From the NCBI GenBank assembly GCA_948567375.1, contig OX419755.1, positions 9,243,001-9,307,000 of the forward strand: a DNA stretch of 64,000 nt. The letters are read 5' to 3'. The stretch comes from Lunularia cruciata (lineage: Eukaryota; Streptophyta; Marchantiopsida; Lunulariales; Lunulariaceae). Both the position numbers and the translations under genes were made by a program. Under the pieces are notes generated by a model. The model had not been told where the DNA came from. It did no database searches and saw only the letters and a list, made by a program, of their open reading frames with translations. This document shows, in pieces, positions 29,688-63,385 of the stretch. Position 1 is the first letter of the stretch. Each line of letters opens with the position of its first letter.

Positions 29688-29941
29688 CTCAATCAACACA
29701 TTAATTGGAATGTGCATGTTCTGGTATATATGCACCCATTCAACACATTAATTGGCTGCCCATTTCCCATTTGATTGGGTAGATTTCTCATATAGACTCT
29801 GTTGGGGCTTAGCCCTCTGTTACTTTTTTTTCTCTCCCTTGTACGGGCTTGATCGGTCTTCCCATCTTTCGTTTGTCCTACGCGATCGACTTTTTCCTTT
29901 TTTGTCTGTCCCATTTGAATTCCACCGTTATTTGTTGACCA
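29688..29941 (+). mobile_element. 254-bp SINE-like insertion carrying the LINE tail repeat
   Basis: The left arm reads straight through GTACCAGGATTCC near 12,215-12,230. The right arm has 254 extra bases here, flanked by ACCA at 29,684-29,687 and 29,938-29,941, consistent with a 4-bp target duplication. The insert contains the full tail (CTCATATAGACTCTGTTGGG, GCTTAGCCC, TTGTACGGGCTTGAT, TACGCGATCGAC) after a 5' part with a doubled CACATTAATTGG. It has no reading frame of note. It is most simply a short non-autonomous element moved by the LINE-like family at 50-58 kb. Confidence 0.7.
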
Positions 29942-31221: not shown

Positions 31222-31672
31222 TGTTAGTTTAGTTAATCTCTAGTTAAGGGACTTCTCTTGTTTTTAAGGTTTTGTTAGAATCCTCTAGAAGCACTGCCAA
31301 ATGTCCTCTGTTTAGGGTAAAGAGGGGCACAGCCCTAATTAGGGTTAAGCAAAGCAACCCCCTACGGTTTGCTGAAGTGTATATAAGAGTGCTTTCTACT
31401 CCTGTTTCAATTAGTTCTTCAACAAGGGTGATTCACAATACCTCTTCTTTGCATTTAGTGAAGTCCTGAGTTGCCTAACATCATCTCAAGATTATCTTTT
31501 GATATCTCAGTATTAGAGGCTACTAGTGCTGAGTGAGAGAACCTACTTGATGCTTGTGAGTTGTGATACAAAGAGAGAGGTCTAGTATTGCATTAGTGAT
31601 GTTTGATACATCATAGATAAGAGGGAGTGATAGACCTTCCACTTCAAAGAGAAGGAAGCTTGGTTCTTATAA
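31222..31672 (+). repeat. Copia 5' LTR
   Basis: It begins TGTTAGTTTAG and ends CTTGGTTCTTATAA, 451 bp, paired with 35,850-36,299. A TATATAAGAG promoter-like motif lies about 155 bp in and is kept in both LTRs. Confidence 0.95.
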
Positions 31673-31690
31673 GGTTATGGGCACACAATC
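31673..31690 (+). other. Copia primer binding site, half-tRNA type
   Basis: GGTTATGGGCACA follows the LTR almost directly. It is complementary, with one mismatch, to the anticodon region of plant initiator tRNA-Met (TGGGCCCATAACC) rather than to its 3' end. Drosophila copia and some other Copia elements prime from such a half-tRNA. The ATG at 31,677, the first start codon of the gag frame, lies inside the site. Confidence 0.7.
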
Positions 31691-34600
31691 AACACTGGGG
31701 TTGATAGGAGAACTCAGAGAGATAGAGAAACTGGGGAAAACTAATTACAAAGCTTGGGCTTTGGATGTGAAGACTATCTTAGACAGTTATGACTGTCTAG
31801 AGTTTGCATTAGAAGCTCATGATATAGATGAGCTAGAGGTGAACAAGGAGGAGAGAGTCAAGCACTCTACTACTAGGAGGTTTCTGCTGAGGGCTATGGA
31901 AGAGCCAGCTAGAGACCTAGTAGATACTTATGTTTGGAGTTGGGAGATTCGGGAAAAAATTAAGAAATATTACACTGTTGAGAAGCTGAAGAGCTCCTAT
32001 CGGGTCTGGTCTACAGTAAAGAACTTGAGATTGGAGGAAGGTGAAGATTTCATCTGTTATCTGTCAAAACTGCAGAAGCTTTTCAAGTGTTTCAAGGAGG
32101 ATGGGGTTGTACTTAGAGAGAAGTATGAGATCAATCATCTCTTAGATAGTCTTCCTTCAAGCTATGACTCTGTCCTAGTAGCTCTGCAAGTTTTACCTGT
32201 TGAAACTGTCGCATGGAATTTTGTGATACACAAATTGCTGGTGTTTAGCATACATAGGAAAGACAAAGGGCTGAAGTTATATGAGCAGTGAGATGCTACT
32301 TTGTTCAGTGCTTCTTCTCAGTCAAGAAGAGTGCCAGATAGAAGAGTGAGCAAATCAGAGCAAACCAGAGTGAGTAAATCTGGTAAAGGAGTTAGTAATG
32401 TTGATGACAGGACTTGTTATTTCTGTCATGAGAAAGGTCATATTGCACTCATATGTCCCAAGAGAGGAAAGAGGAGAGAACGAGCGCTGAAGATGGTAGG
32501 CAAGAGACCTCAACCAGTAAAGGGACGAAAATCTGGGAGTTCAACTTACAAATCAGAGGAGTGCCATGAGATAGTTAATGATGAGGAGGGGTACTCAACA
32601 GAAGAGTTGGATTGTGGAATGTTGGCAGAATCACAGTTGCCATCAAACGGTTCTGGATGGTTCTTGGACTCAGGAGCCACCTCTCATATCTGTTATCAGA
32701 AGGAGATGTTCTCAACTCTTCAACCTCTGAAGATTCCCAAGAGTGTTCGTTGTGGACTTGGGATTCTGAATCCAGTGTTAGAAACTGGCAAAGTTCCTAT
32801 AGCCTTCATGGGATGTTCTAAAAAAGACTATTTGGAAAATGTACTGTATGTTCCAGATTACACCAAGATCTTGATATCAGTACATAGCCTCATGGAGCAT
32901 GGTGTGGATGTTCTGTTTGAAAGCAACAAAAATCAATGTACTTTGAAGAAAGGAGAGCTGGTCCTTGGGTATGGTACTGCCAAAGGGAAGTTGTTCAAGT
33001 TGATGGAAGCTGATGGTTCTGATTCTGCATTGGTAGCAGAAAACAGAAATGATATCCATCTCTGGCATTTGAGGTTAGGGCACTTGTTAGTGCAAAATCT
33101 ATTTGCTTTAGAGAAGGAAGTGGATGGGTTGGAACTAGATCCCAAAGGAAAACTTGAGTTCAGCATTGGGTGTGCAGAAGGTAAGGCACACAAGGCTCCT
33201 ATTCCCAAGAAATCTTCATCTAGAGCTTCTGGTATTCTAGATGTCATACATTCTGATGTATGGGGATACATAACTGAGAAGTCATTGAGTGGAGCAACCT
33301 ACTATATTTCCTTTGTGGATAATTACAGTAGCAAGAGCTTTATCTATCTCATGAAAAGCAAGGATGAAGTGTTGCAAAACTTGCAGAAGTTTGTAGCCAT
33401 GGCTGAGTTGCAGACCGGGAGGAAAGTCAAGTGATTGAGAACAGATGGAGGCAGAGAGTACAAGTACAGGAATGAGGAATTCCTCTCTTTTCTGTCAGAG
33501 AAAGGAATTCTCCTTGACTGTACTGCAAGAGACAGTCCTGCATAGAATGGAGTTGCAAAACGGTTGAATAGGACATTTGTGGACAAAGCATTGGCAATGC
33601 TCCAACATGCCAAGCTGGAGAGAAAGTTTTGGGGTGCTGCAATTATCACTGCAAATTTTCTTAGAAATATCACTGGTACCACAGCATTGGAAGGAAGAAC
33701 TCCTGAAGAATGTTGGAGTGGTAAGACACCTAATCTTTTCAGCTTTGAAAGTCTTTGGATGTCCTGCCTATGTTCATATCCCCAAGGAGCAGAGGAGGAA
33801 GTTCACAAAGAAGGCTGAGAGAATGCTTTTTATAGGATATGAAGAGGGACTGAAAGGATATCTTTTGTACAATCCTAAGTCATCAGAAGTAGAGATGTAC
33901 TCTTTGATGAACTGGGGACTTGGAGTGAGAATAGTGATGAGCTGCAGAAGGAAGCTGATCAGTTTGATCAGCCTGATCAATCTATCTTCCCAAGCTGCAG
34001 AGTCAGTTTTTCAGATCAATCATCAGAAGAGCAATCTCTACCTGAAACTGATGGTTCACCAAAGGAGAGTCTGAAGGTGTACAAAAGAAGGCCTAAACAG
34101 ACAATGGTTGATTCTGATACTACAGAAGGTGACTCCCACAAGCAGTCTGCAGATGTAGGATCTCTCAGTGAGACTCCAGAGATGTCAAGAGACGGCATGA
34201 ATCTTCTGGGCACAGAGCCAAGAAGATCACAGAGAGATAGAAAAACCTATTGACAGACTTGGTCTTCTATCAAAAGAGATGTTAGATGAATCTTACATCT
34301 GTCATGAAAATTGTGATCCAGACACTTTACAGCAAGCTATGCTCAGACCAGATTCGAGTCAGTGGGAGTTGGCTATAGCAGAAGAGAAGAAGTCTCTTCA
34401 GACTAATGGTACATGGGTACTAGCTGATTTACCACCAGGTAGGAAAGCAATTGGCTGCAAATGGGTTTTCAGGGTCAAACGGGGAGCTGAGAATGAGATT
34501 CTGAAGTACAAAGCAAGACTTGTTGCAAAGGGCTTCAATCAGAAAGCATCAATAGGTTATTGAGAAAATTTTGCACCAGTTGCCAGGTATGGATCTATTA

Positions 34601-35849
34601 GCATGCTTCTAGCTCTTGCAGCTGAGAGAGATTGGGAAGTGGAGTAGTTAGATGTGAAAATAGCCTTTGTCAATGGAGATTTGAGAGAGACTATTTACAT
34701 GGATGTTCCAGATGGATATACCAAAGGCAAAGGAAAAGTATGCTTGCTTAAGAAGGCTTTATATGGCCTTAAGCAAGCTCCTAGAGCCTGGTATGAGAAA
34801 CTGGACTCATACTTGAGAGAGCAGGATTTTGAACGAGCAGATTCTGACATGAGTGTGTATACATAGCTGTACATGTAGATGATCTGTTACTGTTGGGGAA
34901 CAGTGAATCTATCACAGGAGTGATAGATTTCTTGTGCTTTGTTTTTGAGATGACTATCCTTGGTCCAGTAAAACTCGTTTTGGGAATCAAAGTGAGCAGA
35001 TACAGAGAAGCAGGATGGATCCGGATCAGCCAACCACAGTATGTGAGATCCATACTAGCTAAGTATCAGATGACAGAGGCAAATCCTGTCTCTACACCTC
35101 TTGATCTGGGGTGGAAGCACAGCAGAATCATAGATGGGGAGGTGAATCTCTATGACAAAGTGTTGTATCAGAGTGCTCTTGGTTCTCTAATGTTTATCAT
35201 GGTCTATACAAGACCAGACATATGCTATGCAGTGGGAGCACTAGGTAGATATACTAGCAACCCTGCACAAGTACATTGGAAAGGTATAAAGAGAGTATTT
35301 AGGTACTTAGAGGGTACTCAAGATGCATTCTTGGAGTACCAAAGGCAAGGTAACATACTTGCTCCTACTCTTGAAGCATATACAGATGCTAGTTGGGAAG
35401 ATGACATAGATAGCAGCATATCAACTAGGGATATGTAGTTTTGCTTAGTGGTGGAGCAATCAGTTGGCGTAGTAAACAACAAACATCTGTTGCACTGTCT
35501 ACTACTGAGGCAGAATTTATGGCTGCCTCAAATGCTACTCAAGAAGTCATCTGGAACAGGAGACTTCTTAAGGAGTTGGGTTTTGAGCAAGAAAGTCCTA
35601 CTACATTGTACTGTGACAATACAAGAAGTATAGCACTCAGCAAAAATCCTGTACATCACCCCAGGACTAAGCACATTGAGATTAGAAGAAGATTTGTAGA
35701 GGAGAAAGAAAAGGAGAATGTTGTGAAGTTAGTTTACTGTCCTACACAGGAGATGACAGCAGATGTGTTTACAAAAGCATTACCTAAAGATAAACACATA
35801 AAATGTGTAGTAGAAATGGGAATAGTCCTGAACTCTCATTAAGTGGGAG

Positions 35850-36299: not shown

Positions 36300-38192
36300 C
36301 AATTTACACTTCCATCTGAACTCAATGTCCTCTCCTACTTACTTACATGCTTCGTTTCCCTTACTGTACAATATTGTGAGCAGGAACGTTCCTGACAGCC
36401 TCTGCACACGCTACCACGGCTGTGATAGGATCTGGAGTGCTTAGTTTGGCTTGGAGTGTTGCTCAACTTGGCTGGATAGCTGGCCCGCTGGTGAACTCCG
36501 GTTTCGCCGTGTAACATACTTGACATCCATTCTACTTGCCGATTCTTATCGTTACATGGACCGTGTATCGAGGAGGAGGTTATATACCTACATGGATGCT
36601 GTTAAAGCATATTTCTCGTCCGTTCACCAGAGGGAAATTCTCAGACGGTTAGGATTAATACTGAGTGATGTCCGATTAATGGAATGCAGTTTGAATCTGC
36701 TCGTAGGGCCCGTGGAGACGTTTGTGTGCGGTCTCGTTCAGTACATAAATCTTTTCGGTGTTTGTGTGGGATATACAATCACAGCAGCCACCAGCATGGT
36801 GTAAGGGTTCAGATTTTCCTTTCATTGTGCTCTCAGCTCACAACGCGTTCAATCTCAGGTTCAAGGAACTTGATCTTAGATACCGTGTGTCTCTTTGTGG
36901 CAGGGCTGTTAAACGTGCTGTGTGTTCCACGAGAAGGGACACAACGCGAGCTGCAAATTGTCCAGAAATATATATATATGTTGATTTTTGGGTTGATACA
37001 GATCGTCTCTCTCAGATCCCAAACTTGGCAGAGTCCTGGTGGTTGTCGGTTGTGGCCGCTGTGATGTCCTTTTCATATGCAAGCATAGGTTTAGCTCTGA
37101 GTATTGTCAAGACATTCCATGCCGGGCATTCTCATGGAACTCTAGGGGGTTCTCCAGTCGGTCCCGAAGAGGGTGAATACTCTCATGCTGAAAAGATGTG
37201 GAAAACGTTTTCGGCTATTGCTTTTGCCTATGGCTTTATAATAATTTTGATCAACATTCAAGTGAGTAAATATTTTCATTTTAGAGTTCAAATACTATCT
37301 AAACTCTCGAGGTTTATGTCTCAGTGATTTATGCACAAGCTAACTTTTTGTAGTGGCCTGACCATCTTTCTGTTTTGCAATAAAACCAGGATACACTTAG
37401 ACGGCCTCCGGCAGAAAATAGAACGATGTGAAAGGTTGCGCTAGTCACCGACGTAACTTGTACATTATTCTATCTGTCCGTGGGATGTTTTGGATATGCT
37501 GCTTTTGGAAATGCAGCTCCTGGAAACTTGGTCACGGGTTTCGGAGTCTACGAGCCTTACCAATTAGTGGCATTCGGGAACTTATGCATCGTCGTACATC
37601 TGTGTGGAGCCTTTTAAGTAACGTACGACTTTCTTTGGTTTGAAAGGTCCTTGTACGTAAAGTCGCCTATGTTAAAGTTGTTATCCAAGCAAACTGCTTT
37701 CTGACACCTGTTCAACTCAACGCGCTTACACCTAACAACTCTTCTTTCTGTGAACGATCTTCAGGTTTTTGCACAACCCCTCTATGCGTTTGTTGAAGTC
37801 AACGCTAGGAGATGTTTCTTTCGACCAGGCCGCAATGTCAAGACTTTTGCTTTCTCCTTGCCTTATGTCGGGTTGGTCAGAGTAAATTTAGGTGTTCTCG
37901 TTTGGAGGTCAGTTTTCGTAGGCCTTACCACATTCATCGCTAGATTGTTGCCGTTTCTCAAGAGCATCATGGGCATATTGGGGGCCTTAGGATTCTTTCC
38001 TCTATGTGTCTATTTCTCCGTGCGTATGTACATGATACGAGTAGGGATACAGTCTTTCAGTTGGAGGTGGTGGTTCTTGTGGTTACTCATGGTAGCTTGT
38101 CTTTTAGTTTCGCTTTGCGCGTCCTAGGCTCAGCAGTGGACATAAAAGCTGCAAGTAAGCATTATGTACCTTTCGATGGTAATGCTGATTAG

Positions 38193-39664: not shown

Positions 39665-42110
39665 AACAGCTTATAAGGCTGGTCACATGAGTCGCAGCAT
39701 AAGCGTAGAAAGCTTATTGAGCAGGTCCTCCTCGAGAGACTGTCACAAGTTTACTGGGTGGTGGAAGGAAAAGGAGTGATTTGTAATCTCGAAAATTGAA
39801 TAACTCAGAGAAATCAAATGTAAAATTGGCTTCGAGTTCATCACAAGACCTCGTACGGGATGAAATCACGGGGGAAGTAGAACTCAACAATGATGGACGT
39901 GCACGATATCATGTATGTTGAATTCTATTTCCATTATGATCTCATCAGTCATGTATGTTGAATTCTACTTCCATTATGATCTCATCAGGTATGTTTGATT
40001 AATTTTCGGATGGAGTGAAGGAGTTAATGCTCTCACCACATCCAAAGAATAGCATAATCTCATACGATAATCTACCGGTATATCTTGGATCGTCCATCAC
40101 CAATGAATTTTAGAACGGTTCAGTTTTGCGTAAGTATAATTTTTTATATTTTTATAATATAGACGTTTTTAATTTAAATAATTATATATATAATTAATAT
40201 TATATTATTTAAAAGAAATTTAATTAATAAATAATTATTTTCATAAAAATGTAATATATTGAAATATAAGATAAATAAAAAAATATAAATAATTATAATT
40301 TATAAAATTTTAATAAAAATAAAATTTTATTGATAGCAAATGAACTATCATGAAGATTATTCATAAGATTGTTAAGACTTAAGAATTGGTGTAAATCCTT
40401 CTCAGCAATATGACCATATCAGGATGTCAATCAAGGTACTCATTGTAATGTTATATTGAAGAGTTAATTATTTAGGGAATTTTATTTATTTATTGTTCAG
40501 TGTTACTGAAAACTAAATGAGAAATTTAAACTTGACCTAGACAAAAGTTGAACTCACCCTGTTCTATTTCAAAATAATTCAGATTTATCAAGGAACCAGG
40601 AACTTTATACTGAAATGAAGATATATATTTTTATTAATTTTATAATAATAAATTTTATAATAATAATATTACTTATATTGTAAACATTAAATTTTTTAAA
40701 TGGTATAGATATTCTTCACTCGGAACCCAAACCTGGCAGAGGCCTAGTAGTTGTCTATTGTAGCCAACGTGATGCTTTTTTCATATTTTTCATAGTAAAA
40801 GGGAGATAGCTTAGAAAACACCATCAAGCCGCACAAGGGAGAGACTAAAGAGGTAAAATGGAGCGAAAGCGCCAATAGAGTTCAGCATATAGATGCATAG
40901 GTTTAGTTCTAATTATCGTCAAGACATTCCAGACTGGCCATTCCCATTGACAAGGGGTTATCCAGCTGGACAAGACTATTCATCCGAGGAGGATGAATAC
41001 TCTCAAAAGATGTGTAAAATGTTTTCTGCTTTGGACAATATTGCTTTCGCATATGGCTTCATAATCATTTTAATCAACATCTAAGTAAGTATATCATTTT
41101 CAAATGTTTTTTAGCTTTCAAGGTTAAAGTAGAGTTAAAAATTATGTAAAATAGGTTTTCCTTTAATACAATACTAGAAAATAATGCACAAGTTAACTTT
41201 TTGCATTGGACTGATCATTTCTCTTTTGGCAAGAATCTAGGATACACTAAGACGGCCATCCGGAGAAAATAGAACGATGCAAAAAGTTGCTTGAGTCACT
41301 AACGTAACTTGTAGTTTATTTTATCTTTCTGTCGGTTGTTTTGGATATGCTGCTTCTGGAAATGCAGCTCCTAGGAACTTGCTCACGGATTTCGGATTCT
41401 ATGAACCTCACTATTTGGTGATATTGGGGAACTTATGCATCGTGGTACACCTGTGTGGAGCCTTTAAGGTAACGTAAGACTTTATTTGGTTTGGAAGCTC
41501 CTTATTCCTAAAGTCGCTTATGTTAAGTTGTTATCCAAGCAAACTGTATTCTGACACCTTTTCAACTCAACGGGCTTACACCTAATAACTCTTTCTCTGT
41601 GCAACGTTTTCCAGGCTTTTGCACAATCCCTTTATGCTTTTGTCGAAGTTAGCGCTAGGAGGTGTTTCTTTCGACCAGGCCCCAAGAAGACTTTTGCTTT
41701 CCCCTTGCCTTATGTGGGGTTGGTCCGAGTAAATTTATGTGTTCTCGTTTGGAGGTCAGTTTTTGTAAACTTCACCACATTCATCGCCATATTGTTGCCG
41801 TTTTTTTCAACAGCATCATGGGCATGTCCATTTCCCATGCGGATTTACATTACACTAGGCGGGATAGAGTCTGTTTCAGTTGGAGTGGTGGTTCTTGCGA
41901 TTACTCATGGCAGTTTGTCTTATACTTCGCTTTGCACTTCCCTAGGCTCAGCTGAGAACATAAAAGTTGCAGGTAAGATAATTACCTTTCGATGGTGATG
42001 CTGATTCCGAGAAATAAGCCTTTTCTTTGTTCCCTCATCATTGTCTACTCCAATTATGGTGTTTCCCACCGTCTGCGACGGGAATACAACTTATCCTATG
42101 AGTAACGTGG
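39665..42110 (+). pseudogene. AAP pseudogene, third copy
   Basis: The upstream region (CTTATAAGGCTGGTCACATGAG) and exon 1 end (about 39,790-39,913) are recognisable, but the start codon is lost. Exons 2 and 3 are replaced by AT-rich DNA. Exon 4 remnants lie at about 40,715-41,083 (HAEKMWKTFSA-like and IAFAYGFIIILINI), interrupted by a tail-repeat insertion. Exon 5 remnants are at about 41,230-41,467 (GYAASGNAAP-like) and exon 6 at about 41,615-41,998. The 3' flank matches that of the other copies to about 42,120. It is more diverged than the two arm copies, so it probably comes from an older duplication. It has multiple stops and indels and no coding capacity. Confidence 0.85.
40797..40889 (-). 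mobile_element. LINE tail repeat inserted in AAP pseudogene exon 4
   Basis: On the minus strand this reads CTCTATTGGCGC, CATTTTACCTCTTTAGTCTC, CCCTTGTGCGGCTTGATGG. It splits the exon-4 stretch that elsewhere reads TTTTCATATGCA-GCATAGGTTTAG. The insertion postdates exon duplication and shows that the tail unit moves on its own. Confidence 0.7.
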
Positions 42111-49828: not shown

Positions 49829-50460
49829 ACATTAAGTGTCCCTACCAATCCAGCTTATGATATTTCAGACTTTGATTTACTGGAGAATATTATCATGTTT
49901 ATATGTCAAATATGCATATTTCGAAAACGATACATTATCTGCTTCGGACTACATAATAAAGTTGTTTTAATATGTGACTCGTGGTTCTTAGTTTCCGGTC
50001 CCATGCTCGTGGCCCCATGCCATTGGTGGAGTTTAGCATCTGTATATTTATTTTGATCCAATGGAGTTCTCAAAATGTGACCCATGCTCATTGGTGGAAT
50101 TTTGCATATGATGAGTGAAATTTCAGAAGCGACACGCTTGAGAGCCGATGGCCCGGCGCCAAAGAGTAGAATAACTCATATAAAAGATAATAATATCATA
50201 AACTCCAAAACTCATTTTGTCAATCCGTCATTACATATGGGCCCTACCTTATATTCGACTCTTTGGATCTGCTATGATATAGTATGATATGATATGGTAT
50301 GGTTTATCATTTCATAACTCTACCAACTGTCTTTGGGGCGGAGAAAGTAGACATGAATCTCGATCGCTAACTTACTTAGATATCTTAGGTGATGTAAAGG
50401 AGATTTTCTTCACATATGCTATTGGGGTTAGTTCCATTTTACCCTTATATGAATTTTCCA
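49829..50460 (+). repeat. Repeat flanking the LINE-like element, 5' side
   Basis: From AAGTGTCCCTA through TTTCAGA-TTTGA, CTTCGGACTA and CCGTCATTACATATGG-CC to GGGGCGGAGAAA this matches 54,028-54,300 in the same orientation. It has an extra roughly 225 bp at 49,965-50,190 that contains its own internal repeat (CCCATGCTC, ATTGGTGGA-TTT-GCAT). The end, 50,398-50,460, carries a partial tail repeat (TGCTATTGGGGTTAG-CC). The LINE copy therefore lies between direct copies of one repeat. Confidence 0.75.
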
Positions 50461-50484
50461 AAATATTTTATCTAAGAAAAGGAC

Positions 50485-53400
50485 TATGATGCACAAGGAC
50501 TATGATTGGACCACTTGGGATGCCCACGTGAGACGAGCGACCACATTAACAGCAGTGACACTTGGGATTACGCATGCTTCTTCTATACCTTCATTGATCG
50601 TTCCAGGGATACCGATCTAGTCGTGGGAGTGGTTAGCTTCTCATGCGGGTTGCATTTTGGGGTTATTTGAGACTAGTTTTACATCTCCACGTCTATTCCA
50701 TAGGCTACCCTGCACACTCCATGATGAGGCTAGATAGGCTTTTTGCCTACCACTGGATTGTTTGGCACGTGATCCCTTGGACGAGTTAGCGTGGTTCCTA
50801 TTCCTCCTACTCCCCCGATGGTGTCTTCGTTATGCTAGAGGGGGACGTGCGGGGTATAGAGAGGTGGCGGCTAGATTTCATCGATTCCAAGCGGGGGATT
50901 GGGCAGCTCTTCAGGAGGAGTATGTTAGTGCTACACGATTTAGGAGACAAGCATCACCACAGGATACCATAGATTCCACTTGATTACGACGATGTAGGAC
51001 ATTGGGTCAAGCGGGAGAGTTTAGTAGAGCAGCATGAGCGCTACACCCTTTGTCTATAGCGAGTCCTACTGATGAGACCATCTCTTCCCTTCGCTCATTG
51101 CATCCTATAGCAGTAGAGAGACTACCACTAGAGGTCTTAGATTATCAGCCTGAGCAGCTTTTATGTCTTGATAGGTCATTATTTGCACAAGCATTGTGCA
51201 CTACCCCTCGCCTTTCCTCAGGAGGCTTGTCAGGGATGGTTTATGAGCACCTTAGAGATTGCTTCCAGGCAGATGATCCTTCTAGTGGTTTTACCGAGTT
51301 GTTTCAGGTGGTTGCAGCAGTAGCAAGAGGAGACATTCTTATGTCTATTAGTCGGGTCTTAGGTGCTAGTCGACTTCTTGCGATCAAGAAGGACACGGGA
51401 GGCATTAGACCGATTGCTATTGGAGAGATCTTTTTGCATTTGGTAAGTCGTACCATTATCCTTCATCATCATTCTCACTTTCGCAACACCTTAGTCCACA
51501 TCAGTTTGGAGTAACTACACCTGGAAGATGTGAGGCTATATCTCTAGGCATTAGAGCACTCCTAGATATCCATCTTGAGTGTGTCATCCTACAGGTGGCT
51601 GTTGAGAATGCTTTTAATAGCGTCTCACATGCATCCATCTTTAGAGAGCTTAGGGAGACTGGTGGATCCTTGGCGAGTCTCATTCCTTTTGTGTGGTCTT
51701 TTTATGGCTCTCCTGCTTCCCTTTACTACCAGCATGGTGGTTCACAGGAGAGAGTCATCATCTTAGAGTCAGCTGTTGGTACACATCAGGGAGATCCTTT
51801 GGGGAGGGGGGGCCTTATTTGCCATGGCTCACTTTAGAGCTCTCCTATCTATTACTTTGGCCATGCCAGGTTGTGTATTTCCCTCCTTGGCAGATGATAC
51901 ACACATCGTAGGCCATGTAGATCAGATTAGGCAGGCCTTTGACTACTTGACTACCGAGCTACATCTAGTAGGCTTGAGAGTCAAGGTGTCAAAGTGTAGG
52001 GCATGGTCCCCTTTAGGTATCCCTCCCCACCTTGAGCTTCTAGAGGGGTGTATCACACCCACAGATGGACTTCATGTTCTTGGAGTGGCAGTAGGATCGG
52101 AGGATTTTGTCACACGCTTCTTGGACGCTGCCCTTGGAGAGGATGTTTTCCATGTGGATGACCTTCCATTACTAGGAGATCCACATGTGGCATTTGGTAT
52201 ACTCTCTTCCAGTATTGCTTGTCGACCATCCTACCTCATCCGTACAGTTCCCCCCTTACTGTCCTTCCTATCACATCTGAGAGCATTTGATAGGAGGATT
52301 ACGGGAGTCTTTGGTGATATTATTGAACCAGGGACTTTTGAGTGTGTGACAAGGGACTTGGCACGTAGACAAATGGCTCTACTGATCTCATGTGGTGGGG
52401 TTGGCTTACTTTCTATGGAGGAGATGTTACCTATAGCGTTTTTGGGTAGTTGGGCTCGTTCGGCACCCCTACTTTCCTCTTGTTTTGTGGTTGCTGATAG
52501 GCCAATTTTGGAGACTTATGTGAGAGGTGGAGGGAGGATCCTTTTCTCTCCAGGTGTTATTGTGGCAGACGAGAGATAGTCTATCACCATGAGCACAAGA
52601 GGGTTTTCCACCGTTTGCTTCACTATTGTCAGATTGGACTAGAGGTCTACAGTCTTCCTTGATGGAGCGATAGTGTGAGCATACGCTACATTCTCTCTTA
52701 GTCGACTCGTCCATTCCTCAGGCTACTAGAGCACGTCTACACTCTTGCTCCGGCAAGGGTGCAGGCTCATGGATCCTAGCTCGACCATGCATTAGGGCTT
52801 TCCGACTCGCACCGGCTACTTTCTCTACAGCGATGAGGTTTCGCCTAGGTTTTGTCCACCCATCTCCATCTTCACTACTCACTTGTGAGTGTGGTTCTAC
52901 ACTAGATGCAGCGGCAGTCCACATGACACAGTGTCCTTTTGGTGGACAGAGGATAGCTACCCATGATGCCATTAGAGTTTGCTAGTGTTTGCTATGGCAC
53001 GAGAGAGTGGATACTTGGCTTGGAGGGAGCGTTTGTATGCGTTGCAGACAACACGTGTCAGGGCAGACTTATACTTGGTCCGAGATGATCAGGTGACAAT
53101 AGCGGATGTCGTGGTCACGGACCCTATGCGGGATACAATTTTGGAGGGAGTGATTACCCATCCCCCTGGATGGGCAGCGAGTGCAGCAGCAGGTCGCAAG
53201 GTCTCCAAGTATAGGGGCATGCAGCGAGGTCACCTCTTTGTTCCTCTAGCCTTGGAGTTATATGGAGCAATGGACACGGCATTTGACACATTTGTCAGGG
53301 AGTGCACGAGAGCTTATCATGTTAGGCGTCAGGAGGTACCACTCTCACTCTCATACTTTGTAGCATATTTTAGACAGTGTGTGTCCATTACTCTATAGAG

Positions 53401-53515
53401 GGCAGTGGCTAGTGCAATCCATAGGAGAGCAATCACATTAGGTGATGTTTCTTTGGATGCTCCAGTTGTGTGTAGACCGTACGACTTGCATAGCTCGGAT
53501 ATCTTAGGTGCGGTA
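50485..53515 (+). mobile_element. LINE-like non-LTR retrotransposon with R2-type endonuclease order, copy 1
   Basis: The RT domain starts near 51,050. GGIRPIAIGE is near 51,400; the motif A position reads QVAVENAFNSVS (about 51,590-51,630) with Ala (51,598-51,600) where the catalytic Asp is expected; motif C is LADDTHIVG (about 51,887). After the RT come a CCHC motif, CECGSTLDAAAVHMTQC (about 52,882-52,932), and a nuclease-like RADLYLVRDDQVTIADVVV (Asp at 53,066 and 53,105, twelve residues between), as in restriction-like endonuclease LINEs such as R2. Damage: TGA codons near 50,980 and 51,030 at former CGA codons, a frame change around 51,460-51,490, an extra base in the G-run near 51,800, a stop near 52,579, and mixed frames at 52,580-52,980. 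The 5' end is truncated relative to copy 2. It ends in the tail repeat. Confidence 0.8.
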
Positions 53516-54895
53516 GGGCAAATTTCTCATACAGACTCTATTGGGGCTTAGCCCCATGTTACCTCTTTTGTCTCTCCCTTGTATGGCTTGATGGGGTCTT
53601 CCCATCCTTCATTTTTCCTACGCGGTCTCCTTTTTCTCTTTAAGAAAAGGTATTCTCCAAAATATTCCATGTACCTAAAATTATTATTTGAATCTTCTCC
53701 TCGCTCAGCAACTTCAACTCACTTAGCAGCATCATGACAGCACATGAATGCCCCGCTTAACTTGGCGGAGGGCTTTGACAGCATGCGCAATTTTTACTTG
53801 AAGTGAGATGAAGTGAACTAAAGTTATTTCTACTTTGTTATGGTGAATGGTGGGATTGCCTTACCCTTTTGTCTTTTCCTTGTCCGGCATTATGGGGTCA
53901 TTCCCCCTTCTTGTTTTCACCCACAGTCACCTTCTTCACTTCCTACTATCCAATCCAAAGAAGCTCACGTTTGGGATGGAATCTAAGACCCCGCAAGAAT
54001 ATTTTATTCCCCTCAGAAACTACAGTAAGTGTCCCTAGAAAATCCATGGTAGGACATTTCAGAGTTTGACTTATTGTACAATATAATCATGCTTATCTAT
54101 CAAAACATGCATATCTCAAAATGATGCGTCATCTACTTCGGACTATATAATACTATCATAAACACCAAAAACTTACTTTGTCAGTCCGTCATTACATATG
54201 GACCCTACCTTATGTCTGCCTCCCTACATCTGCTATGATATGGTATGGTCTATCAGTTCATAACTTCTACCAACTGTTTTTTGGGGCGGAGAAACTCAAC
54301 GTGCATCTAGATTGCTAAGTTCCTACTATCTTGGGGCATGTCGGGTAGATTCTTTTTACAGATACTATTGGGCTTAGCCCCATTTTAGCCTTACATTTTA
54401 ACCCCACGAGAATATTATATTCCAGTCAGAAAATGATATCAAGTTACAAGAAGAATACCTTATATTTGACTCCTTACATCTGCTATGATATGGTATGGTC
54501 TATCATTTCATAACGGCTTGTTGGGGTTTTCCATCCCTCGTGTTTTCTACGTGGTCGTCCTTTACCGTTAGACTCATTTCATAACTTCTACCAACTGTGT
54601 TTGGAGCGGAGAAAATCAACGTGAATCTATATCGCTAACTAGGGGCTGTAGGTTGTTTTTACAAATACTATTGGGGCTTAGCCCTATGTTTTTTCCTTCC
54701 TTTCCTTGTTATGGGGTCTTTCCCTCCTTGTTTTCGCAAGCAGTCACCCGCTTCACTTCCTCTATCCAGTCACCCGCTTCACTTCCTCTATCCAATCCAA
54801 AGAAGCTCACGTCTCGGATGGAATCCTACAAGAATATGATATTCCCATCAGAAAGTGACATCAAGTTACAAGAAAGAAGTTCTCCATAATTCAAA
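53516..54895 (+). repeat. Cluster of LINE tail repeats and associated units
   Basis: The full tail at 53,516-53,645 follows the LINE 3' end: CTCATACAGACTCTATTGGG, GCTTAGCCCCATGTTACC, CCTTGTATGGCTTGATGGGG, CCTACGCGGTC. Further versions in the same orientation are at 53,840-53,945, 54,350-54,400 (first half), 54,510-54,565 (second half) and 54,650-54,760. Between them lie copies of the 49.83-50.35 kb repeat (54,028-54,330 and about 54,403-54,510) and AATCCAAAGAAGCTCACGT blocks (53,950 and 54,788). The cluster looks like repeated insertion or tandem copying of the element's 3' end. Confidence 0.75.
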
Positions 54896-54899
54896 GAAA

Positions 54900-57800
54900 A
54901 AAGAACAAGGGTGACCACATAGAAAAAATGTAGGATAGGAACATCTGATCAAGCCAAGCAAGGGAGAGATGGAAAAAGGTAAAATGGGGCTAAGCCCCAA
55001 TAGAGTCTATATGAGAAATCTGCACTACTGCACCTAAGATATCTGAGCTATGAAGTTGTGTGGTCTCCAAACAACTGGAGCATCTAAAGAAGCATCACCT
55101 AGTGTGATTGCTCTCCTATGGATTGCACTAGCGATTGAATTTTGTAGAGCAATGGACACATGCTGTCTAAAATATGCTAAAAATTATGAGAGTGATAGTG
55201 GTACCCCCTAGTGTCTAACATGATAAGCTCTCATGCACTCCCTGACCATTGTGTCCATCACTCCATATAAGTCCAAGGCGAGAGGAACAAAGAGGTGACC
55301 TGGCTGCATGCCCCTATACTTGGAGACCTTGGGACCTACTGTTGCACTTGCCGCCAATCCATGAGGATGGTTAATCACTCCCTCCAAAACTATATCTTGG
55401 ATAGTGTACATAACCACAACATCTGCTACTATCACCTGATCATCACAGACCAAGTATAAGTCTACCCTGACATGTGTCATTTGCAAAGCATATGATACTC
55501 CCTCCAAGCCAAGTATCCACTCTCTCATGCCATAGAAAATACTATGTCCCTAATAGCATCATGGGTAGCTATTCTCTATCTTCCGAAAGGACACTGTGTC
55601 ATATGGACGGTTGTTACATCTAGTGTAGAACCACTCTCACAAGTGAGTAATGAAGATGCAGATGGGTGGACCAAACCTAGGCAAAACTTCATTGTTGTAG
55701 AGAAAGTAGATGGTGCGATTCGAAATGCACTAATGCATGGTGGAGCTAGGATCCAAGAGCCTTCATCCTTCCCGGAGCAAGAGCAAAGACATGCTCTAGT
55801 AGCATGAGGAATGGATGAGCCAACTAAGAGAGAATGTAGCGTATGCTCACATTGTCGATCCACTAAGGAAGACTATAAACCTTTAGTCCAATCTAACTAT
55901 AGTGAAGGGAAAGATGGAAAGTCCTCTCATGCCTAGGAGAATAGACTATCTCTCATTTTCCGTAATAACGTTTGGAGAGAAAAGGATCCCCCATCTACCT
56001 TTGTCACATAAGTCTCCAAAATTGGCCTTAAACAACCACAAAATGAGAGGAAAGTAGGGGTGCCAAGAGAGCATAACTACCCAAAAATGCTATAGGTGCA
56101 TTCTCTTCCATAGATAGCAAGCCAACCCCTCCACATGAGATTGGTAGAGCCATTTTTCTACATGCCAAATCCCCTATCACACACTCAAATTTCCTTGGTC
56201 CAATAGTATCACCAAAGACTTTTATAATCCTCCTATCAAAGGCTATTAGATGTGATAGGAAGGGCGAGGAAGAGGGAACTATATGGATGAGGTAGGACGG
56301 TCAATAAGCAATACTAGAGGAGAGTATACCAAATGCCACCTGCAAATCTCCTAGTAATTGAAGGTCATCCACATGGAGAACATCCTCCACAATTGCAGCA
56401 TCTAAGAAGCATGTGACAAAAGCCTTGGATACTATTGGCACTCCAATAATACCTAGTCCATCTATAGATGTGATACACCTCTCTAGAAACTCAAGGTGGG
56501 GAAGAATACCTAAAGGGGACCATGCCATGCACTTTGACACCTTGACTCTCAAGTCTACAAGATGTAACTTGGTAGTCAAGTGGTCAAAGGCATTCCTAAT
56601 CTGATCTACAAGGCCCATGATGTGTGTATCTTCTCCCAAGGAGAGACATACACAACTTGGCATGGCCAAAGTAGTAGACAAGAGAGCTCTAAAGTGAACC
56701 ATGGCAAATAAGGGTCCCCCTAAAGGATCTCCTTGACATGTACCCATAATTGACTCCAAGACGATGGCTCCCTCTTATGAACCACCCGTGCTTCTAGTAA
56801 AGGGAAGCAAGATGGCCATAAAAAGACCACACTACAAGAATAGGACTCACCAAGGATCCACCAAGCTCTCTAAATATGGATGTCAGTGAGACATTATTAA
56901 AAGCATTCTCAACATCCACCTGTAGGACGACCCACTATAGATGGATATCTAGGAGTACCCTAATGCCTAGAGATATACTTCACATCCCCTAAGTGTAGCT
57001 ACTCCAAACTGATGTGGACTAAGGTGTTGTCAAAAGTGAAAAAAATGCTGAAGGACAATGGTACGACTTACTAAATACAAAGATCTCTCCAATAATAATC
57101 AATCTAATGTCCCCTTGTCCTTCTCCATCACGAGAAGTCTATTAGCACCTAACACCCAACTAATAGACATAGTAATGTCTCCTTTTGTTATTGCTACAAC
57201 CACTTGAAATAACGTGATAAAACCACTAAAAGTATCATTTGCTTGAAAGAAATCTCTAAGGTGCTCATAAACCATCCCAAAAAAGCTTCTTGAGAATAGA
57301 TGAGAGGCAATGCATAATGCTTGTGCAAAAAGTGACCCATCAAGACATAAAGGTTGTTCAAGCTGAGAATCTAAGACCTTTGGTGGTAGTCCTTCTACTA
57401 CTATAAGATCTAGTGAACATAGGGAAGAGATAATCTCATCAGTAGGACTCAATATAGACAAAGGGTGTAATGCTTGTGCTACTCTACTAAAATCTCCCGC
57501 TTGACCCAAGGTCCTACACCATCGTAATTGAGTGGACTCTATGATATCATATGGCAAAACATGTCTCTTAAAACATGTAGCCCGAAGAGACCTCTCCTAA
57601 AGGGCAGCCCAGTCCCCTAATCAAAATCAATGAAATCTAGCAGTCACCTCTCTATGCCCTGCATGTCTCCCTCTAGCATAATGAAGACACCATTAAGGGA
57701 GTAAGAGAATAGGAACCATGCATACTCATCCAAGGGATAATGTGCCAAACAATCAAGTGGTAAGTGAAAGGCCTGTCTGGCCTCATCACGGACTGTGTGG

Positions 57801-58190
57801 GGTAGCCTATGGAATAGATGTGAATATGGAAAATTATTCTCAAATAACCTCAAAATGCAACCCGCTTGAGAAGCTAACCTCTCCCATGACTTGATTGGTA
57901 TCCTTTGAATGGTCAACAAAGGGATAGAAGAAGCATGTGTAATCTTGAGTGTCACTACTGTCGATGTGATAGCTCACCTCATGTGCGCATCCCCAAGTGA
58001 TACCAATCATAATCCTTGTGCATCCTTCCCACATGGTCTTTGCTCCTTGCAAGGTAAAATGTCAATGACATACTGGGCATGGTGTATTCCGAGCCACTCG
58101 AGAAAACCCACATGGGGAGGTGTAGCCATGATTAGTACAAGAATAATGATAATAACACATGATACTCCTCTTCATATCTCCCCGTAATTG
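54900..58190 (-). mobile_element. LINE-like non-LTR retrotransposon, copy 2, tail to tail with copy 1
   Basis: This is the same protein family on the minus strand. It reaches further 5' than copy 1 and includes a CPVC zinc-finger-like start near 58,080 (HFTLQGAKTMWEGC). Motif A reads QVDVENAFNNVS with its Asp at 56,914-56,916, but motif C reads LGEDTH (about 56,628-56,642), so the first Asp of the usual ADD is Glu. The CCHC-like region (about 55,570-55,640) has lost a cysteine (CESG). The nuclease-like motif RVDLYLVCDDQVIVADVVV is at about 55,420-55,475. Several stops and frame changes split the frame (around 57,099, 56,760-57,090 and 55,800-56,300). Its 3' end is the tail repeat at 54,900-55,022. 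Confidence 0.8.
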
Positions 58191-58199
58191 CAAAACCGC

Positions 58200-59440
58200 A
58201 ACCCCTCACATCCCAAATGACTAAATGAACTTGAGTCCTACTGATGAGATTAGAATTTATGAGACTTACAAGACTAAAAAATGAAATTCGGGACTGTAGT
58301 TAGAGAATGGATTCCGATCGAACTTAGCTTCCTAATTTCTAAAAAATAAAAAGAATTTCGGAATTCGGTGTGAATTTTGCGAAACTTCTGAATCTCTAAT
58401 TAATGAGGAACTCATAATTACCAATTGCGATGATACGGAAAAGGCGATTGCGTAAGATAACAGATAGCAAGAAGGATGGGAAAATCCTATCAAGCCGTAC
58501 AACTATAATATGTGGCTATCCCCCAATAGTATCTGTAAGAATCTGGGTCGATAAGAATATGAAGGTATCATTTTCTTGTAACAGGTTTTCATTCTTACCT
58601 TACCGAGCTTTATCGTTCGTTATTGTTGGATCAATTATTGGGATGGGTCATTGATATGGATGAAGTAAGTCAAAACAAAGATCCTGTAATTATTGTTATT
58701 AAGTTCTTACTAATAAGATTTGACGAGTTTTCATAGAATCCACAGATTCTTTAATGATCACAAAAATACTCTATAAATACTTCAAGTATAAAAATGAATA
58801 TGAGTGACGCTCTCATCCATTGAGAGAAACATATAAATTAAAAGCCACCTGTGCTTTATTCTAGTTTTGGTCCTCGGATTATACAAGAGGACCCTATATG
58901 AGAGTTTAAGACTCTTTTCTACCCAACTCATAAGTTAATAAGGATGAAAAATGCATTTCAAGGCTAGCGACCCGATACTTTTAATGAACTGTGAACCCGA
59001 TCCCCAGACCAATTTGCTTCACGCTCACATGGGTGGAAATGCATTGCCTTCTAATGATAATATATCTGATTCTCATGTTATTATTCGTCTTTACAAATTG
59101 TAAGTGATCGTGTTCTTCTCCTCGCAAATTTCAGATTCACAACTGGATTCCATGAACGCCTCAGAATGATTTTCTCTACGTAGTCTGTATCGTACGTACT
59201 ATAATAGAAAGCTAAAATGAAGTGCTGCTATTCTTAACGGTGCCGACGATCACTATTGGCAAGATATGCTGATTAAAGAATCAAACAACAAAAGCACGTA
59301 ATCCATTAACTACAGTGGGACACTATATATAAAATCAGATCCTGGATGTCATCTGAGTTTGAAAGTCGTCAGAATTTGGAAATCTTGAGATGTTTATACC
59401 ATAAGACATGTTTACCGATTGATACCCAAGTCCTTTTAAT
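58200..59440. other. No gene recognised; one tail repeat inside
   Basis: 58,433-58,545 on the minus strand is a diverged tail repeat (CAGATACTATTGGGGG, GTACGGCTTGATAGG, CCCATCCTTCTTG, TTACGCAATCGCC). It lies 5' of copy 2 and in the same orientation. The rest, including AT-rich 58.6-59.4 kb, holds nothing I recognise. Confidence 0.6.
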
Positions 59441-59690
59441 TTTTTGACTACTAGGAATCCATGCATTTATAAAATCTTACGAGTCATACGCAACACCCAC
59501 AATAAAAATATAGATATCAATAATACTGTAATTAAAGCCCTGTACCCGGTTAGTCGCATGGTGGAAAGTTACTCTCAGCAGAATGAAAAAAATAAATGTA
59601 TTTGTGTATTATGGAGGAATGTAAGGTTTTTCAACTGTCTCTCCATTAGGAAACAACTTGTCACTGTAAGCGTGAACATAGTCGGACACT
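59440..59690. repeat. Duplicated module, first copy (partner 63,385-63,660)
   Basis: It shares CCATGCAT-TATAAAATC, GGTTAGT-GCATGG, GGAAGTTACTCTC and TCCATTAGGAA with 63,385-63,660 in the same order and orientation. In both places it leads directly into the roughly 205-bp hairpin unit. Confidence 0.8.
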
Positions 59691-60298
59691 CGCGAATTAG
59701 TTTGGATTATATATGTATATAATCTGAACTCCAATATTGAATATTAATTGATATTTTATCAATTATTACTTGTACAATATTTTGTTGCTAAAAACTTACA
59801 CTCATACTTCTTGATTGATAAGAGCATTTTGTTAATCGACGATTTTATTTATATGAAATTCAATGTTAACTGCGAACTGTGTTAACTGTTACACTCGCGA
59901 ATTAGTTTAGATTATATGTGTATATAATCTGAACTCCAATCGCATATTGAATATTAATTGATATTTTATCAATTATTATTTGTACAATACGTTGTTGCTA
60001 AAAATTTACACACATACTTCTTGATTGATAAGAGCATTTTTTTAATTGACGATTTTATTTATATGACATTCAGTGCTAACTGCGACCTATGTTAACTGTG
60101 ACACTCGCGAATTAATTTGGATTATATGTGTATATAATCTGAACTTCAATTGAATATTGAAAATTAATTGATATTTTATCAATTATTACTTGTAAAATAT
60201 GTTGTTGCTATAAACTTACACACATACTTCTTGATTGATAAGAGCATTTGTTTAATCGACGATTTATTTATATGAAATTCAATGTCAACTGCGTACAT
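59686..60298. repeat. About 205-bp tandem array, three units, each with a hairpin
   Basis: ACACTCGCGAATTA starts at 59,686, 59,891 and 60,101 (periods 205 and 210; the last unit is about 196 bp). Each unit holds an imperfect palindrome of the form GATTATATATGTATATAATC, the run AATTGATATTTTATCAATTA (itself self-complementary) and TACTTCTTGATTGATAAGAG. A single diverged unit lies at about 63,675-63,835. Confidence 0.9.
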
Positions 60299-60384
60299 TC
60301 AGATTATTGCTGTTGCTGGGTACCTTTCTTGAGTGCGGTTTCTATTCAAGTTAAGCGATGCACTTCCCGAGGTCGGACTGTAGT

Positions 60385-60545
60385 TTTTCCGCGATGGTGA
60401 AGAAAAACCCGATAATTAACGAGACCATGGGAAAGGCGACCGCGCAGGGATACAAAAACGATGGAAAGACCTCATCAAGTTCGCACAAAGAGAAAAGCAC
60501 AAGAGGTAAAATTGGGCTCAGTCTCTGACCAGGAAAAGCTTCATC
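60385..60545 (-). repeat. Diverged LINE tail repeat
   Basis: On the minus strand this reads AGACTGAGCCCAATTTTACC, CTCTTGTGCTTTTC, GTGCGAACTTGATGAGGTCT and GCGCGGTCGCC, matching both halves of the tail. It is the most distant copy from the LINE pair, about 2.2 kb beyond the 5' end of copy 2. Confidence 0.6.
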
Positions 60546-60549
60546 CACT

Positions 60550-63385
60550 GACTCCGCGGAATCTGGTCAACTTGTTTGATATCCAAAAGTCATATCATAC
60601 TATTTATGTGAAATAATACTATTTGTCCTATTTTATGTCCATTAATTATGACAGACCTATCACATTTATTATAAGATGTAATTACCCGTTTGCATTCCTC
60701 GTGTAATTATGATAAACCTGTCAGATTTATTACCAAATTTCTTTCCTTGGATTTATAGTAAGAGGATATATTATTCACATCTATGTAGTGCTCCTCCCCA
60801 TGGAAGAACAATCCTCCAGCTATTTTTTTTCTTACCCTCTTTACACATGGTCATCTTCCTTTCAAATAAATAAATTTATGATTGAATTATGTTCATGCTA
60901 ACCAAGTTCCATGCAGTCTTGTCTATCTGGTATTTGATGCTTTAATATGAATTCCATTGATGTTGAAAGATTTTTGATTTCCTTAACGGATTCTTGAGGA
61001 TTCACTCAAGTTGCATTTCATGTTGGTTTGCATTTGCATTTCAATGATACAGAAGGCATTTCATTGAAATTCCAAGAGTCCTTGGGATTTCAATGAAATG
61101 CATTCTGTATCATTATATTAATTTATTAAGAATACTTAACAATGAAGTTAAATAGTAACTTTTGAAAGAAGAAATATAGTCCATTCATCTCTTACTCTTG
61201 TAAAATTATGAACCGAACTAGTTGAAGGTATTTGACTCTAAATAGTATAATATCGTATGATATTATAAAAATGTGTATACTATACTATTACTTGATTGTA
61301 AGATTTTATCTGATTCAAACAACAACTTAAAAAGGTATCAATCACGAAAGATACCTTATCCTATCAGGAAATATATTGTTTTATTTTTATTTTGGAAGAG
61401 AAAATCTTTGAGATTGCAACATAAAATAAATGCATTATCAATAACTATGAAAAGAGATTACGAAACTCATTTTTTGAAAAGAAGCATGGGCCAGTAATCC
61501 CAAAACATCATGCATAGCAATAATGAGTTCACTTTGATTCATATATATATATATATACTTCATTGCATTTTAAGAATGAAAGATTTTGAATTTTCTGTTA
61601 AATAGCTTCACCATTACTGCTTTATGTCTTATGGAATTCAAGTAAAGTTTAGATTTATTGTGAACCAAATATAATTAAGCATATGTATATTGTGAATGAT
61701 TTTGGATGAAGGTTAGATACTATCTCTTTAAATTGTTAAATCTTTAAATTGTTACAAAGAGTGTAAGACTTAAATATATTCTTTGATAAAGCGACCCCCT
61801 TGGCTCGGATCAGCCCACTCGCTCTGACTAACCCTTTCTTAACCGGGTTAGTCCATGTTAATGTGATTAACGTTAAATTCTACTGTTTCAGAATTTGAAT
61901 AACCCAATCATAGTTACTTTGGAAGAGATTAGACTCGGATGCAGCAGCTCTTTATCTTCTATTTTTGCTTGTTGGTTGCAAGATAGTATTCCCTTGGCTT
62001 TAACCTCCGCTGTCATGCCCTCGTCCCTGTCCACTGTGCCCTTGGCTACTTTCCTATAAGAGAGCAATCTCAAATTGTGAGGGGCCCTCTAGTAGACGCC
62101 GATGTCTAAGCCTGTCAGGAACTTTGGGGTCCATTCATAGCTCCAATAAGCCTGCCGTGAGGTTGTATGATAGTAGGTTCCCTTACCAAAACCCAAAGAT
62201 CAAACGGATGGCATATCATCTCAATAAAGTGCCAATGTTTGTGGAATTGGGTGATCTTGAAGGATCATGTCTTACCCCAACAATCTTTCAAGATATGAAT
62301 GCGTGTACCATGTTGTATTAAGTGAATTGTGTTAACAGTTTGGAAGAATCAGTGTCATTGTTGGTACTAGGGGGATATTTTGAGAAGAGAGTTTGTACAT
62401 GTTGGATCGCTTTAACCTAGACTCGATTCTGATAGAGAAATGATGTATTTGTAGGCCATTCCACTTTCTCATTTGCAATCTCATACTGCAATTCCACCTA
62501 TATTGTAATGATTATACAGCTTATAGGAGACTTCAAGGTCCTTCTTTAGCAACGAATGAGCACCTTCAGTCCATGATGTCATGTCAATGTCTCTGCAAGA
62601 CGGAGATATCAATAAGTATAGCATTGAAGAAAGTTTGAATGTGTCATCGAGTCATTCTTTCTTAATGGATTTGATAATAGACTCAAAGGCTTTGTCATCA
62701 TACTCACATCATACTTTGTCATCATACTCACTTTGGAAATCTTGCCACACTTGCTGCATCTCGTACCGCAGGTGCTATCACAATCTTTTTCCAACAGCTC
62801 AACATCTGCTTCCACCATGCCTGACATTTTGCTGGAAAGACTCAGAGAGGTCAATTGTACTGAGGAGCTCTTGTGAGAGAAGAAGCCTGGCCTTTACCAC
62901 AATGTTATGATTAATATACCAAAGGGGTTTGATTTAAGCATTTTGGTGTCATAAAAATATTTTATTTATATGGGAGGTCAATGAGATATTTTGTAGATTA
63001 TTATAGGATGTGATATTAGAGATATTTTTATAAAATTTAATAAGATATATTATAAATTTTTATGAGCTAAGAGACAACCTATAAACCAGAAAGACCTAAA
63101 AAATCTGATGGAAGTAAAATTTACTTATGAAATAATGAAATAACCTATTCCTAAAACATGAGAAGCATATTCATATATTCTTGATGCGAGATAGTAAAAA
63201 ACATTTATGGGAGGTAAATATGCAAGATGAGCCTGTCGCCAAATCCCCCCCTTTATCTTAGTTCAATTTATATTTGCTATAAGAAGAAGCAACTTCGAAT
63301 AGATTCTACGAACATATATGAATGACTAGAGAATAACAAACAAAATAACTTATCGAATATGAATAAAGCATTAAAATGTCTAATT
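60550..63385. other. AT-rich DNA without recognised genes
   Basis: It holds the foldback at 61,043-61,114 (listed), an (AT)n tract near 61,541-61,556, and a doubled TTTGTCATCATACTCA near 62,693-62,730. A 65-codon open stretch at 62,124-62,321 (MGSIHSSNKPAVRLYDSRF) resembles nothing I know and may be chance. Confidence 0.5.
61043..61114. other. Near-perfect foldback: 34-bp arms, 4-base loop
   Basis: Left arm 61,043-61,076, loop AGTC, right arm 61,081-61,114; 32 of 34 positions pair. The arms begin AATGATACAGAA and end TTCCAAG or CTTGGGA. The transcript would form a long hairpin. A small MITE-like element or a young inverted duplication is most likely. The tiny loop is unlike most plant miRNA precursors. 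Confidence 0.9.

Follow-up and report, generated by a model that had tools for sequence, protein, structure and literature searches.

We analysed a window of 64,000 nucleotides of Lunularia cruciata (assembly GCA_948567375.1, contig OX419755.1, positions 9,243,001 to 9,307,000 of the forward strand; all coordinates below count from the first letter of this window). Two copies of a long interspersed nuclear element (LINE) lie in it in opposite orientations, and these are very probably the dead remains of an autonomous, R2-like non-LTR (long terminal repeat) retrotransposon bearing a restriction-like endonuclease (RLE). An original prediction, made from the letters alone, had placed such a pair between 50485 and 58190; the pair lies where it was claimed to lie, with coordinates refined to 50483-53640 for the plus copy and a 3' end at 54898 for the minus copy. 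The plus copy (3158 bp, + strand) is 5'-truncated, and its limits were drawn from comparison with the homologous minus copy, from perfect 10-bp direct repeats flanking it and from a 3' end that is the same as that of other copies of its tail. The minus copy (- strand) extends from 54898 to an uncertain 5' end at about 58190, with an ATG at 58129 that opens MATPPHVGFLEWLGIHHAQ. A gapped alignment of 3123 bases puts the identity of the two copies at 83.7%, and 13 of the 15 inverted-repeat pairs between 46000 and 62000 join 50517-53568 to 54973-57993, their arms measuring 36 to 704 nt at 81-94% complementarity.

Both copies are broken, and in each the coding region is split over several frames. 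Read from plus to minus, the differences are mostly C>T (129) and G>A (127), the reverse changes T>C and A>G numbering 54 and 49, and the observed to expected CpG ratio is 0.46 in the plus copy and 0.21 in the minus copy. This excess together with the low CpG would fit decay by methylation. Differences fall almost equally on the three codon positions (15.4, 15.0 and 17.1%), and consequently we claim no selection on the copies.

The reverse transcriptase (RT) of the plus copy is spread over three open reading frames (ORFs). The open frame at 51038-51511 (+) corresponds to the N-terminal part ahead of the catalytic A motif; it has a homologue in the minus copy at 57099-57596 (-) and no Pfam match of its own. 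The fingers and palm follow at 51409-51834 (+), with SPHQFGV, ENAFN as motif A and QGDPLG as motif B, and the palm and thumb at 51767-52579 (+), with ADD as motif C and then the linker. Motif A of this copy has Ala in place of the catalytic Asp. In the minus copy the ORF at 56301-56774 (-) carries QGDPLGG, and GED as motif C. Joined reads, in which a copy was translated through its frame breaks, match Pfam RVT_1 above the gathering cut-off for the plus copy (E=6.9e-9), and below it for the minus copy (E=0.0012), as does the unedited plus fingers/palm ORF alone (E=0.0053). A profile built from the two copies alone had, at E<=10, a sole and weak match in the PDB, the R2 protein 9nl2 (E=0.13); LINE-1 ORF2p and group II intron RTs, which are present in the PDB set, were unmatched at that threshold. 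A second profile includes an R2 row, so that its R2 ranking is circular and was not used as evidence. Aligned with three R2 RT segments, the RT scores 92, 67 and 52, values equalled by 0, 0 and 2 of 2000 shuffles. Furthermore, when the 9nl2 RT segment was compared with the 246 unedited stop-to-stop ORFs of at least 60 aa in the window, the plus palm ORF had the best score (62), and the minus RT ORF scored 38.

Downstream of the RT, the linker ORF of the plus copy (52674-52985, +), recognised by alignment to R2, holds GxRIxxH and a CCHC-like knuckle, CECGSTLDAAAVHMTQC, of the form CX1CX9HX3C; in the minus copy, whose linker and knuckle ORF lies at 55579-55872 (-), Ser stands for the second Cys. 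The putative RLE ORF of the plus copy (52976-53395, +) has one D at 53066-53068, another at 53105-53107 and KX2KY from 53198, and its counterpart in the minus copy is at 55211-55549 (-). As first described, the C-terminus would end in a nuclease-like D-x12-D motif followed by VVV, and this is what both copies have, RADLYLVRDDQVTIADVVV in the plus and RVDLYLVCDDQVIVADVVV in the minus copy; the KX2KY motif, KVSKY, is kept in both and is an addition to that description. In the LINE variant of the PD-(D/E)XK nucleases the first K of KX2KY is catalytic, according to the cited passage of PMC5678591, and both copies carry D-x12-D and this K. The D-x12-D spacing is identical to that of R2Bm. The C-terminus can be aligned with R2 over the stretch that begins at the knuckle and includes KX2KY; it scores 76 with 9nl2 and 69 with R2Tg (9dou), and none of 2000 shuffles scored as high in either case; with R2Bm (8gh6) the score is 44, 14 of 2000 shuffles score as high, and the alignment halts before KX2KY. 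Profile-profile comparison with the R2 RLE by hhalign gave E=1.1e-4, and in the 246-ORF ranking against the 9nl2 nuclease the unedited RLE ORFs of the plus and minus copies took first and second place (50 and 47, the next scoring 39). The plus-copy frame has a TAG at 53396 where the minus copy has a Gln codon, and translation places the probable end of the ORF at a TAG (53549-53551, +) in the loop of the GGGGCTTAGCCCC hairpin. The proposed succession of RT, knuckle and RLE is borne out by the translations, by Pfam RVT_1 and by the R2 alignment. The proposal of an R2-type nuclease at the C-terminus is supported at the level of sequence, by R2 alignment, hhalign and ORF ranking, and the predicted structural models are uninformative on its fold.

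Plant L1 and RTE LINEs carry an APE endonuclease before the RT. It might be supposed that the copies derive from a LINE of this kind, whose decayed C-terminus resembles a nuclease only by chance, since the cited passages of PMC9033089, a 2022 review, name no LINEs but L1 and RTE for plants, and the linker of APE LINEs likewise ends in a CCHC knuckle, as stated in part of PMC5678591. We regard this as extremely unlikely: D-x12-D and KX2KY are kept in both copies, the likeness to two R2 nucleases exceeds that of all 2000 shuffles, and the RT profile matched R2 and not L1 ORF2p. Furthermore, the same passages of PMC9033089 give (A)n or (GTT)n as the ends of plant LINEs, and at the end of the LINE described here no poly(A) or GTT tail was seen.

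In line with the original prediction, which saw no APE, no APE or other Pfam domain was found, with 0 families at E<=1, in the three minus-strand frames from 60600 down; these cover some 2.4 kb that precede the longer copy, whose 5' end is not fixed. The frames upstream of the ATG at 58129 are rich in stops. An element of the Dualen/RandI type, which has both APE and RLE according to the cited part of PMC4640811, could have lost its upstream APE by 5' truncation in both copies, as the plus copy is indeed truncated there and the 5' end of the minus copy is not fixed; in the passages cited, this dual-nuclease element is recorded for green algae (PMC4438587, Table 3). The stop-filled frames that yield no Pfam domain at E<=1 upstream of the ATG argue against it, as does the length from this ATG to the stop at the hairpin, about 1045 codons with frame breaks between, which already comes close to the 1114-1390 residues of R2 chains in the PDB. 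RNase H was not among the Pfam matches in the RT and linker-RLE reads, which also speaks against a Dualen-like origin. Such an origin is, in our judgement, unlikely; we favour an element without APE, with the reservation that two copies cannot prove the 5' end.

At its 3' end the LINE has a T-rich tail (53508-53640, +), which is common to several short stubs. The probable ORF stop lies inside the loop of the GGGGC-TTA-GCCCC hairpin (53549), so that tail and coding region overlap. A profile of approximately the last 150 bases, searched over the window at E<=1, gave 16 matches: the two LINEs, nine others of at least 16.5 bits and five weak ones of 5.3 to 11.4 bits, one of which lies inside the minus LINE. 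The reversed window gave no match at E<=1, and ten shuffles peaked at 7.7 bits. Among the three best tail copies the central hairpin is near-constant and covariation is slight, with both partners altered in 2 of the 24 predicted pairs (three sequences).

Where these tails were inserted, several of them are flanked by short direct repeats. The plus LINE has the perfect 10-bp repeat TAAGAAAAGG as its putative target-site duplication, at 50473-50482 on the 5' side and at 53641-53650 on the 3' side (both +), where it abuts the element end at 53640; of 20000 places taken at random, 31 have an exact repeat of at least 10 bp at this spacing. A rival repeat, ATTYTCCAAAATATT (50453-50467 / 53652-53666, one mismatch), ranks higher but lies outside the element end, and this longer outer repeat leaves the target-site duplication of the plus copy not unambiguous. 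At the same 5' junction AGGACTATGAT stands twice, 16 bp apart (50480-50506), perhaps as filler made during insertion. A 134-bp 3' stub at 29775-29908 (+; 75.9 bits with the tail profile) has the 10-bp repeat TCCCATTTGA (29765-29774 / 29909-29918), a 55-bp stub at 29122-29176 (+; 22.8 bits) has the 11-bp repeat TTTCCAA[T/C]TAC with one mismatch (29111-29121 / 29177-29187), and a 59-bp stub at 54515-54573 (+; 16.5 bits) has the perfect 12-bp repeat TCATTTCATAAC (54503-54514 / 54574-54585). Direct repeats of 10-12 bp, one of them imperfect, were consequently found at four of the eight sites examined, around insertions of 3158, 134, 55 and 59 bp. The random-place control is weaker at short spacing (119 of 20000 places at 130 bp and 188 of 20000 at 60 bp), and it covers exact repeats, the mismatched 11-bp repeat standing outside it. 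Direct repeats were not found at the tail matches at 40809-40882 (-; 38.0 bits), 58439-58540 (-; 34.9 bits), just upstream of the minus copy, and 60432-60525 (-; 22.8 bits). For the minus LINE no exact direct repeat of at least 9 bp joins 54840-54920 to 57980-58800, and neither the 8-bp matches nor a single 10-bp match, itself with one mismatch, give a convincing pair of ends. A constant 3' end, variable 5' truncation and target-site duplications (at four of the eight sites) are thus found together, and a common 3' end with differing 5' ends and unrelated duplicated targets is what target-primed reverse transcription leaves; the insertion pattern fits such a process without site specificity.

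Other tail copies have heads of another origin. At 54574-54755 (+) a recurring non-LINE head (CATAACTTCTACCAACTG...GGGGCGGAGAAA) is followed by the LINE tail in a composite like a short interspersed nuclear element (SINE), and related copies lie near 50187-50450 and 54147-54396, with heads common to all three; their tail matches score 31.9, 26.8 and 26.1 bits. They look like SINEs or composites that use the LINE tail. Such composites with non-LINE heads, and the several tail copies without direct repeats, would also be expected if the tail were an unrelated repeat, for example a SINE or a miniature inverted-repeat transposable element (MITE), that the LINE ancestor had captured or been inserted into. 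This we think quite unlikely, as the tail of the plus copy stops precisely where its direct repeat begins, the tail overlaps the ORF end in both LINE copies, and it is present in stubs of three lengths, each with its own repeats, whose ends coincide exactly or to within a few bases.

Two of the weak tail matches, at 17954-17993 (-; 11.4 bits) and 23861-23898 (+; 9.7 bits), lie inside a longer repeat with two like copies. Beside the 55-bp stub there is a hairpin-like, MITE-like repeat at 29177-29240, with a weak Rfam match to MIR7696 at 29177-29238 (23.9 bits, gathering score 83). The Rfam search gave two rows at E 4-5, both under their gathering scores, and no ribozyme. A viral contig with an 18-base pattern of the tail was rejected as a chance match, its flanks being, by eye, unlike the tail past about 19 bases, and six tail-like strings had no occurrence in the main texts of the open-access papers searched.

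Taken together, this evidence makes it most likely that the element is a plant LINE of R2-like make, with an RLE and without site specificity, and several observations have to be set against this identity. The RT ranking singles out one ORF, the next two being tied at 40 and one of these being unrelated. The knuckle, CX1CX9HX3C, departs by one residue at each step from the CX2-3CX7-8HX4C given in the cited passage of PMC5678591. The same source, in part, describes for R2Bm an RH before helix 1 and a GXW after strand 4 that are common to LINE RLEs and Prp8; TH and YGAM stand at these places here, with H kept and R and W lost. There is a 12-residue insertion ahead of KX2KY relative to R2, the hhalign probability is just 56.5%, and two AlphaFold runs on the C-terminus gave low-confidence models with a pLDDT (predicted local distance difference test) of 37.3 and 36.7, at which level, about 37, the PD-(D/E)XK fold is unproven. 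Shuffled sequences fold as well as the tail RNAs do (z -1.38, -0.24 and -0.09), and half of the eight sites (the minus LINE, 40809, 58439 and 60432) have no qualifying direct repeat at the element end.

On the identity that we prefer, an R2-like LINE that inserts freely, the parent would have encoded a single protein in which the RT was followed by a linker bearing a CCHC-like knuckle and, at the C-terminus, by a PD-(D/E)XK-type nuclease of the LINE variant. The nuclease may nick targets with little sequence preference, and the RT may recognise the last approximately 130 nt of the RNA, that is, the constant GGGGC-TTA-GCCCC hairpin and the T-rich end, and prime on the nick by target-primed reverse transcription. 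Early stops of reverse transcription would then give the short 3' stubs, and other transcripts that had gained the LINE tail could be copied in trans.

The rest of the window contains a decayed Ty1/copia element at 31617-35438, with gag, Pol_BBD and RVT_2, and broken fragments of an amino-acid permease (Aa_trans) at 9652-10263 (-) and 36749-37327 (+), which are oppositely oriented and whose translations resemble each other over long stretches, indicating that a gene fragment was duplicated; Aa_trans is also represented at 8812-9300 (-). The copia and permease fragments are in keeping with a plant host and would not by themselves prove one. At 59685-60346 a 210-bp unit is repeated in tandem about three times, and an inverted repeat at 61043-61114 has 34-nt arms that are 94% complementary and 4 nt apart.

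Among the closest known systems, R2 (R2Bm 8gh6, R2Tg 9dou and 9nl2) is like our element in the order RT, knuckle, RLE and in D-x12-D, KX2KY and GxRIxxH. Insertion into 28S rDNA, the mark of the R2 clade, is not seen: the element lies outside 28S rDNA, the window has no rRNA family match, and the target sites are unrelated. It also differs from R2 in its 5' truncation with short direct repeats, and the knuckle spacing, RH and GXW of R2 are not conserved in it. The N-terminal Myb and zinc fingers of R2 were sought through the Pfam scan alone, with 0 families at E<=1. Searches by RT and RLE alignments among viral contigs, genome contigs and plasmids gave no relatives. Related unannotated RT proteins presumably exist in other green plants, which we take as a lead and not as a result.

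The known hosts of non-site-specific RLE LINEs and of Utopia are animals and protists. Variable insertion sites are described, in the cited passages of PMC3636483 and PMC13188248, for the RLE elements Hero, EhRLE3 and YURECi and for the R2-homologous Utopia elements of sponges, and the word 'plant' occurs 0 times in these two papers; Hero is recorded for animals only in the cited Table 3 of PMC4438587. These elements and ours, compared by description only, are alike in having an RLE with non-fixed insertion sites. Dualen/RandI is, like our element, an RLE LINE of the green lineage, and differs in having an APE, none having been found here, where the 5' end is not fixed. With plant L1 and RTE elements ours has the plant host and 5' truncation in common, whereas its RLE after the RT and its T-rich end set it apart. 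No earlier description of such a plant RLE LINE was found in open-access papers, a scope outside which Repbase-type records lie. An undescribed plant clade is consistent with, and not proven by, this literature, including the cited passages of PMC9033089 and PMC4438587.

RLE LINEs form the older LINE branch, one that is mostly target-specific, according to the cited part of PMC4640811. A plant RLE lineage that inserts freely and leaves ordinary target-site duplications would, if true, widen the host range and provide a distant relative for comparison. Of the new handles, the defined 3' tail, repeated within a single window, is the most useful, and it can be searched for in any plant genome. 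Such a lineage would also give a testable candidate for a missing partner: the cited passages of PMC3747384 say that T-ended p-SINEs and Au-like SINEs may rely on LINEs yet to be identified, record the partner of Au-like SINEs as not determined, and suggest an unidentified LINE that recognises poly(U). It is tempting, though doubtful, to propose a third land-plant LINE lineage, with an R2-type nuclease, no APE and no site specificity, that also drives T-ended plant SINEs (Au-like and similar) and has the stubs and composites of the window among its products. The likeness of our element to the Au-like SINEs of seed plants lies in the short T-ended 3' end, a likeness drawn from their description and not from Au sequence.

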